Source: Ignavibacteriales bacterium (GTDB lineage Bacteria > Bacteroidota > Ignavibacteria > Ignavibacteriales > Ignavibacteriaceae). From it: a stretch of 39,462 nucleotides of DNA. Below, piece after piece: positions 35,963 to 36,780 of this stretch (the first letter of the stretch is position 1; every line of letters starts with the position of its first letter). Location: positions 1-39,462 of the forward strand of contig JAAYVN010000047.1 of the NCBI GenBank assembly GCA_012517155.1. Direction: 5' to 3'. The position numbers were made by a program, and so were the translations under genes. A model generated the notes under the pieces. The model worked only from the letters and a program-made list of their open reading frames with translations. It was not told the DNA's origin and searched no databases.

Positions 35963-36020
35963 AATAAAAAGCCCCAAATTATTTTGGGGCTCTGCTCCGC
36001 GAGCAAGACTCGAACTTGCA
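35963..36020. repeat. 58-bp direct repeat, distal copy (tRNA 3' end + terminator)
   Basis: Positions 35963-36020 are identical to 36315-36372, an offset of 352 bp. The repeat unit holds the terminator hairpin and the last 26 nt of tRNA-Asn (T-arm and 3' acceptor strand). This copy is not part of an intact tRNA. Confidence 0.95.
35966..35991 (-). terminator. Terminator hairpin, distal copy
   Basis: AGCCCCAAA / TTTGGGGCT with a 4-nt loop is followed, in minus-strand reading, by a run of T. It is identical to the hairpin after the intact tRNA-Asn (36318-36343). It would terminate transcription coming through the GIY-YIG gene. Confidence 0.85.
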
Positions 36021-36049
36021 TCCCGAACTCTTTCGGGATAACAGTCGAT
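35995..36049 (-). pseudogene. Decayed tRNA-Asn 3' portion
   Basis: Positions 35995-36020 equal the 3' end of the intact tRNA-Asn. Further 5' (minus strand) the similarity resumes around the anticodon loop (TAACAG at 36039-36044 versus 36383-36388) after a divergent stretch of about 8 extra bases that forms a hairpin (36020-36039). The acceptor 5' strand and D-arm are absent; the GIY-YIG stop codon (36053-36055) lies 4 bp away. It cannot fold as a working tRNA. Confidence 0.75.
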
Positions 36050-36052
36050 AAT

Positions 36053-36310
36053 TTACAATTTCACTTCTCCCGAGATAATCCTCTCTGTCATAACCCTGCT
36101 TTTCCATCCCTTAATCTTTTTCTCAGCATCTGCAGCATCAGATTTTGAGTTGAACTCTTTCTTAAACACCATTTCCCAGGGACGGTATCTTGAAGTAAAC
36201 CCCTTTTCGATATTATTATGATAATAAAGTCTGACTTCGGGGTTTTCAGAAATACCCACATAATATTTATCGGCAGATTGTGATTTAAGTATGTAAAGAA
36301 AATATTTCAT
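36053..36310 (-). CDS. Single-domain GIY-YIG endonuclease
   Basis: An 85-residue protein beginning MKYFLYILKS. A longer reading frame runs upstream to 36424, but that extension is translated tRNA-Asn and terminator sequence, so the start is the ATG at 36308-36310, 5 bp from the end of the 58-bp repeat. The GIY and YIG equivalents are Y5-I-L and Y17-V-G19. The catalytic Arg is R27, with H31-N32 nearby, and the metal-binding Glu is E63 in DAEKKIKGW. This is a stand-alone nuclease domain of the UPF0213/YhbQ size class, without a DNA-binding domain. Its tight fit between the intact tRNA-Asn with its terminator and a tRNA remnant suggests a mobile or homing-type unit. Confidence 0.85.
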   Translation of the reverse strand: MKYFLYILKSQSADKYYVGISENPEVRLYYHNNIEKGFTSRYRPWEMVFKKEFNSKSDAADAEKKIKGWKSRVMTERIISGEVKL

Positions 36311-36314
36311 AAGC

Positions 36315-36372
36315 AATAAAAAGCCCCAAATTATTTTGGGGCTCTGCTCCGCGAGCAAGACTCGAACTTGCA
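36315..36372. repeat. 58-bp direct repeat, proximal copy (overlaps tRNA-Asn 3' end)
   Basis: Identical to 35963-36020. This copy includes the working terminator and the 3' 26 nt of the intact tRNA-Asn gene. The two copies flank the GIY-YIG gene in direct orientation. Confidence 0.95.
36318..36343 (-). terminator. Terminator of tRNA-Asn
   Basis: A 9-bp stem, AGCCCCAAA / TTTGGGGCT, begins 3 nt past the tRNA discriminator base and is followed by T5 in minus-strand reading. Because it precedes the GIY-YIG ATG by 8 nt, the nuclease can only be expressed by read-through or from a hidden promoter. Confidence 0.85.
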
Positions 36373-36418
36373 ACCCTTCGGTTAACAGCCGAATGCTCCA
36401 CCATTGAGCTATCGCGGA
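36347..36418 (-). tRNA. tRNA-Asn (anticodon GTT)
   Basis: 72 nt without encoded CCA. The acceptor stem TCCGCGA/TCGCGGA with discriminator G, D-arm GCTC/GAGC, anticodon stem TTCGG/CCGAA with loop CTGTTAA, and T-arm GCAAG-TTCGAGT-CTTGC all pair perfectly. The GTT anticodon gives asparagine. It is the only tRNA in the window. Confidence 0.95.
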
Positions 36419-36780
36419 ATTCAAATTTTTTGAATTGTAAAAATAGTGTATTTTTTTATTATTTGCAAAAAATATTTTTCCCCCGCCCCCAACAAATTAT
36501 TTATCAAAATCTCTTCCCTCCCCTCACACCATATTCCCCCACCCCCTTCCAGCCCGCTTTCGAAAATCTTTCCCCTTTTACCTTATAAACAAGGTATAAA
36601 TAAGGTACAAATAGGGTACAAATAAGGTATAAATAAGCTCTTTTTACAATTCCACACCCCCTTCCTTTTTCCCTCGGATTTACGTTTACCCCTTAATTTT
36701 ATTAAAAATTTATTGGTTTGAAATTAATTTCATTTCACTATTTTTGTCAGAGAATTTAATCTAAAATAAAAAATCGAACT
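36419..36780. other. Strongly C-rich intergenic region between tRNA-Asn and the second M14 gene
   Basis: About 360 bp with no ORF. The + strand at 36480-36580 is dominated by C with very few G, and is followed by the 11-bp tandem repeat (listed separately) and an A/T-rich stretch next to the M14 start codon. It must hold divergent promoters for the tRNA and the M14 gene. No confident promoter boxes are seen. Confidence 0.7.
36591..36634. repeat. Four tandem 11-bp repeats, consensus AAGGTAYAAAT
   Basis: AAGGTATAAAT, AAGGTACAAAT, AGGGTACAAAT and AAGGTATAAAT follow each other without spacer, and the next bases (AAGCTC) start a fifth, broken unit. An inverted partial copy, TACCTT, precedes them at 36580-36585. 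The 11-bp period is close to one helical turn, as expected for iterated protein-binding sites. Confidence 0.85.

Follow-up and report, generated by a model that had tools for sequence, protein, structure and literature searches.

Small GIY-YIG nuclease genes paired with hairpin-broken tRNA copies form candidate minimal homing-type elements at bacterial tRNA genes

Intact tRNA genes in bacteria of several phyla are accompanied by very short units, each made of a small GIY-YIG nuclease gene and a partial copy of the neighboring tRNA gene interrupted by a hairpin. We consider it somewhat probable that these units make up a family of mobile elements that are minimal in size, specific for a tRNA, and of the homing type, with a free-standing nuclease, a reading in which cleavage and mobility are deduced from the arrangement of the DNA. 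Each element would consist of the nuclease gene and part of the tRNA gene that it targets, copied together with the adjoining flank or terminator and bearing a short palindrome that has abolished the presumed cut site. The unit from which the family was recognized lies at a tRNA-Asn gene of an Ignavibacteriales bacterium, within the 39,462-nucleotide stretch of contig JAAYVN010000047.1 that was analyzed as a whole (hereafter the window).

On the minus strand of the window, an intact tRNA-Asn gene (GTT; 36346..36418), called by ARAGORN and matched by Rfam RF00005 in the genome and in locus L002, is followed by a terminator-like hairpin with a T run (36322..36343), an ORF of 85 codons for a GIY-YIG nuclease (36053..36310), a partial tRNA-Asn copy, and an identical terminator-like hairpin (35970..35991). 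This is the order that a preliminary description had given, and it is confirmed by ARAGORN, by the ORF itself, and by a PF01541 match; the terminators were delimited by repeat searches, with an inverted-repeat search for the first copy, and by inspection of the sequence. The perfect 58-bp direct repeat of tRNA 3´ end and terminator, which had also been described, is real, with its distal copy at 35963..36020 and its proximal copy, inside the intact tRNA and terminator, at 36315..36372, both on the minus strand. It extends to 62 nt at 98% identity (35963-36024 and 36315-36376) and takes in the last 27 nt of the tRNA, one more than first counted. The 294 bp between the repeat copies hold a single ORF, that of the nuclease, in agreement with the reported absence of an integrase.

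The second tRNA copy had been called decayed, which proved inaccurate, as it is substituted by a hairpin. A piece resembling tRNA-Asn from about position 26 or 27 to position 36 (ATCGACTGTTA; 36039..36049, minus strand) is followed by the 18-nt palindrome TCCCGAAAGAGTTCGGGA (36021..36038, minus strand) in place of the 10 nt of tRNA positions 37-46, and the remainder of the copy, positions 47-73, is exact (35994..36020, minus strand; repeat search and sequence). The left edge of the hairpin is the same in relatives, its position is common to L071, L075, L076, L078, L081, and L087, and the palindrome is present once in the window where shuffles predict 0.01 occurrences. The nuclease frame is also open across the whole tRNA, giving a 123-codon ORF from a TTG (36053-36424), so that annotation may join translated tRNA to the nuclease. 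Upstream of tRNA-Asn, at 36584-36637, there are 11-bp tandem repeats of the TATAAATAAGG type, and a similar row of 11-bp repeats adjoins the tRNA-Asp unit of the same genome (L001:1167-1249).

On the basis of its motifs, with the catalytic Tyr, Arg, and Glu, and of its predicted fold, the window protein is assigned to the GIY-YIG nuclease superfamily. It matches PF01541 with 61 bits (E=1.1e-16), the residues Y6, Y17, G19, R27, and E63 are invariant among relatives, and the predicted model (pLDDT 93.8) comprises the GIY-YIG domain alone, with Slx1 and UPF0213 (1zg2, 1ywl) as best PDB matches. A separate DNA-binding domain is absent from the 85 amino acids, and the specificity is thus left without such an explanation. 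Searches with the window protein by tblastn gave no match in phage records (E 1e-5) and none in plasmid records. In some units elsewhere the ORF is truncated. The small GIY-YIG proteins of the UPF0213/YhbQ type are similar in size and fold, but the longer UPF0213-like proteins of the same genomes are not located at tRNAs.

The window unit is one of several in its genome (3.29 Mb, 160 contigs), which has ten PF01541 matches. Several of these lie at contig ends, as expected if the units are repeats. Units occur there at four tRNAs, namely Asn, Asp (L001, with three broken 3´ copies), Met (L004 plus L008, with the assembly break within the ORF), and Gly (L007 plus L009). GIY-YIG genes were present in all 40 relatives searched, and 14 of 29 best GIY loci in relatives have a tRNA on the same strand within 450 bp. 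A wider scan of genome contigs with an alignment of four Asn-type proteins, seeded by protein only, yielded 77 loci, 44 of which have a same-strand tRNA within 450 bp, compared with about 0.8% expected (p=9e-72). Scanned loci with at least 54% identity and a detectable tRNA are at tRNA-Asn, including one (L086) to which ARAGORN gave an unclear anticodon. The more distant loci are found at Asp, Pro, Arg, Gln, Cys, Met, Gly, Val, Phe, and other tRNAs in Bacteroidota, Patescibacteria, Marinimicrobia, and further phyla, and in all of them except one the nearest tRNA is co-directional with the nuclease gene. A Gastranaerophilales clade of the scanned proteins is not at tRNAs. The same architecture at other tRNAs, which had been named in advance as a sign of a mobile unit, is present at many of them.

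Two mirror-image arrangements are observed. In the 3´ type, the intact tRNA and its flank are followed by repeated segments of GIY gene, palindrome-bearing tRNA 3´ part, and flank; in the 5´ type, repeated segments of palindrome-bearing tRNA 5´ part and GIY gene precede the intact tRNA. Broken copies flank some tRNAs on both sides, and rows of broken copies with no ORF stand at others (six upstream copies in L070). The preliminary description placed the window unit at the tRNA 3´ end; across the family, units sit at both tRNA ends and not just at the 3´ one. Complete genomes contain arrays of three to five identical or near-identical units with exact periods between 306 and 450 bp, in which the nuclease gene and the tRNA fragment are amplified and the intact tRNA is not. 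They comprise five units of 315 bp at tRNA-Asp, five of 450 bp at tRNA-Leu, three of 350 bp at tRNA-Arg, and, at tRNA-Ser, three each of 316, 306, and 351 bp.

Hairpin-interrupted tRNA copies were mapped in 57 loci, which cover more than ten isoacceptors and belong to Ignavibacteriota, Bacteroidota, Patescibacteria, Marinimicrobia, and other groups; the mapping used anchored pairs and required arms of at least 5, and low-quality rows with inserts above 40 nt were excluded from the statistics. Arms of at least 6 bp are present in 53 of 60 short inserts and in 2% of shuffled inserts, a figure to be read with the mapping's own demand for at least 5. The exact position of the interruption is shared within an isotype by 44 locus pairs, compared with 8.7 after permutation (p<0.0005). 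Asn copies are interrupted at 36|47 in six loci plus the window, and upstream Asn copies at 22|32 in six, among which L047 and L082 are one and the same locus. Asp copies are interrupted in the T arm (50|59, four loci), Pro copies in the anticodon arm (28|46, in relatives within the order of the window's genome and in a Kerfeldbacteria MAG), Arg copies in the D loop (22|23, five loci, a clean insertion), and Cys copies in the anticodon loop (L105 and L125, by eye). Many hairpins are located in the T arm, and their sequence is mostly TCCCG..CGGGA, or CCTGCC..GGCAGG in Flavobacteria.

These hairpins are not exclusive to tRNAs. The host genome has 28 places with TCCCGA..TCGGGA, about half of them near tRNAs or in arrays resembling tRNA 3´ ends, and CCTGCC..GGCAGG occurs at 1-19 places in each of six other genomes. 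At the start of one host contig (L013, C13:1-470), repeats of about 72 bp each contain a TCCCGA hairpin, a piece resembling a tRNA 3´ end, and a terminator, with no nuclease ORF. At L012 and L018 (C6:9129 and C28:12581), TCCCGA hairpins flanked by GTTTA / CGTTTAAGAGCT lie away from tRNAs.

Judged from sequence comparison, the protein clades group by tRNA target across phyla. In a tree of 120 proteins (76 columns), tRNA identity requires 26 changes, as against 44.2 after shuffling, and none of 200 shuffles reached this value. Proteins of different genomes share a mean identity of 48% when located at the same tRNA and 38% when located at different tRNAs. The Asn clade (22 rows) unites Ignavibacteriota with MAGs labelled Bacteroidetes and Chlorobiaceae, and the Asn and Asp proteins of the host genome fall into separate clades, where each is joined by proteins that other genera have at the same tRNA.

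Comparison of related genomes, which the preliminary description had called for, did reveal empty sites. The yqeY-tRNA-Arg neighborhood is conserved in 30 Flavobacterium species, of which one has a unit, one a relic (L173, a decayed copy whose hairpins keep the same positions), and 28 a lone tRNA. Relative to the empty site, the Flavobacterium insert reads hairpin, tRNA 23-41, GIY gene, and tRNA 1-22, and lies at tRNA position 22|23. At tRNA-Asn within the window's order, 10 of 29 readable loci have the GIY ORF, at least four have hairpin relics, and lone tRNAs also occur. Between the promoter region and the tRNA, two congeners (G028 and G030) differ by a segment of about 107 bp that carries a 5´ copy with a hairpin. 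That a conserved locus carries the gene in some alleles and lacks it in others, a trait of homing endonucleases, is thus seen at both tRNA-Arg and tRNA-Asn. These empty sites and the recurrent architecture lend support to the earlier suggestion of a minimal homing-type or tRNA-associated selfish element, of which the cutting and the copying remain the conjectural part.

We propose the following scheme. The nuclease would cut a single tRNA gene at a constant position, presumably the one at which the fragment copies are interrupted. The break would be repaired from an element-bearing copy, on a donor or a sister chromosome, through homology arms derived from the tRNA, and the product would be a tRNA rebuilt whole with the unit inserted beside it; such products are what we observe. 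The palindrome, which recurs at the putative cut position in the leftover tRNA fragment, may spare the unit from cutting there. Repeated cutting of the intact tRNA, with unequal repair between fragment and tRNA, could then produce the identical units and tandem arrays described above.

The unit would behave like a homing element, as a candidate rather than an established member of that class. The fragment copy is interrupted by a hairpin, yet the intact tRNA-Asn is identical in occupied genomes (the window, G007, G008, and G011) and empty ones (G017 and G022). The occupied tRNA is therefore not protected by a change of sequence, contrary to classical homing, and self-cutting must be tolerated or otherwise blocked. 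The survival of the intact tRNA, and the recurrence of palindromes rather than random indels, are not accounted for by the scheme. A bolder and more tentative version is that the units are a distinct class of autonomous elements of about 300 bp, with nothing more to the mobile unit than a GIY-YIG nuclease of one domain and a hairpin that takes the place of one arm in the tRNA copy. The hairpin might then contribute actively to the mechanism, as an arm that is mobile or swapped and not as a scar, and sister lineages might use the same type of nuclease, together with terminal inverted repeats, to insert at conserved codons in protein genes.

Other explanations differ in what they leave to the nuclease. 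One that we think unlikely is that the unit, comprising the GIY gene, the hairpin-bearing tRNA fragment, and the flank, leaves an array by looping out into a small circle and enters by a single homologous crossover inside a tRNA, with the nuclease merely stimulating recombination. Such a crossover between circle and intact tRNA yields the observed order in both the 5´ and the 3´ types, and the Flavobacterium insert at 22|23, as read against the empty site, is in line with it. However, the homology arms are just about 20-60 bp long, the circle is itself hypothetical, and the model alone leaves the recurrence of palindrome positions by protein clade unexplained.

Less probable again is that the palindrome is the nuclease's own, cruciform-like substrate, so that a hairpin extruded in an array is cut and drives amplification while the tRNA is not cut. 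The closeness of the fold to Slx1, a branched-DNA nuclease, and to UPF0213 would fit, as would the palindromes found in nearly all broken copies, the related palindromes scattered through genomes, and a sister clade that lies between terminal inverted repeats within protein genes. Specialization of clades by tRNA identity would nevertheless be pointless if the substrate were nearly the same at all tRNAs, and the element would cut itself. We give slightly less weight still to a domesticated nuclease that benefits its host by acting on tRNA or foreign DNA, for example in defence or as a toxin-like protein, and is retained beside tRNAs for the sake of its expression. While the conserved catalytic residues and the co-directional tRNA agree with such a role, the patchy occupancy, the relics, and the arrays resemble a selfish element, and the unit has no antitoxin or partner gene. 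Tandem tRNA duplication does occur in bacteria, but simple duplication and decay with the GIY ORF as a chance passenger, the alternative offered in the preliminary description, is very improbable in view of the recurrent hairpin positions, the protein clades that track tRNA identity, the arrays with one ORF per unit, the same-strand association (p=9e-72), the relics, and the empty sites.

The closest known counterpart of the homing-type element that we favor is SegB, a free-standing GIY-YIG homing endonuclease of phages T4 and T6 (PMC13096335; PMC2988022). Tandem amplification of the tRNA-segB segment depends on recombination and on the catalytic activity of SegB, whose cuts fall within tRNA genes (PMC13096335), a precedent for the scheme proposed here. 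RAWTSGAAC, the SegB motif, corresponds to the reverse complement of a T-loop sequence. The present units likewise have a GIY-YIG nuclease beside tRNA genes, and their arrays of exact period may have a comparable cause, although the intact tRNA is not amplified in them. In contrast to SegB, a phage protein near a wide range of tRNA isotypes, the present genes are chromosomal, encode 80-90 amino acids, and form clades that each keep to a single tRNA; their units also contain a hairpin-broken copy of the tRNA.

Integrase islands at tRNA 3´ ends likewise restore the tRNA and leave a partial tRNA copy at the far end; this identity was rejected on account of the 294 bp between repeats with their single GIY-YIG ORF, the copies at both tRNA ends, and the palindromes inside the copies. 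Group I introns that carry homing endonucleases and reside in tRNA genes share the homing-type nuclease and the conserved tRNA target, and were rejected because the six loci searched in Rfam match tRNA only and ARAGORN reads the tRNA whole and uninterrupted. REP/RAYT systems and integron cassettes are alike by analogy only, as repeated units with a short palindromic site and one ORF each, whereas the present units have a different nuclease family and tRNA-derived flanks.

A search confined to open-licence PubMed Central papers returned no earlier description of such units in bacterial chromosomes. Should our reading hold, the tRNA genes of numerous bacterial phyla would be targets of elements that are each specialized on one tRNA and rank among the smallest homing-type elements known to us. 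They would account for tRNA fragments and tandem arrays of one kind in bacterial chromosomes and for some contig breaks in assemblies, would supply compact natural nucleases with tRNA-gene specificity, and would offer a simple test of how a nuclease coexists with an intact copy of its own target.

Small GIY-YIG genes of a sister clade are located within protein-coding genes (L003, at host C145:243-488; L031/L060; L120, L213, L214, L216, L219, L229, and L238). Terminal inverted repeats such as CACCCCGTnAnATA..TATnTnACGGGG bound these genes, which split, among others, four-helix-bundle (23S IVP-like), helicase-like, and XerC-like recombinase genes, identified by reading their sequences, at conserved codons. 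The insertions could be IS-like, intron-like, or bypass elements. Proteins near this inverted-repeat clade also occur at tRNA-Cys/tRNA-Gly pairs with hairpin-bearing tRNA-Cys copies (L231, L233-L237, and L241), and thereby connect the tRNA locations with those in protein genes.
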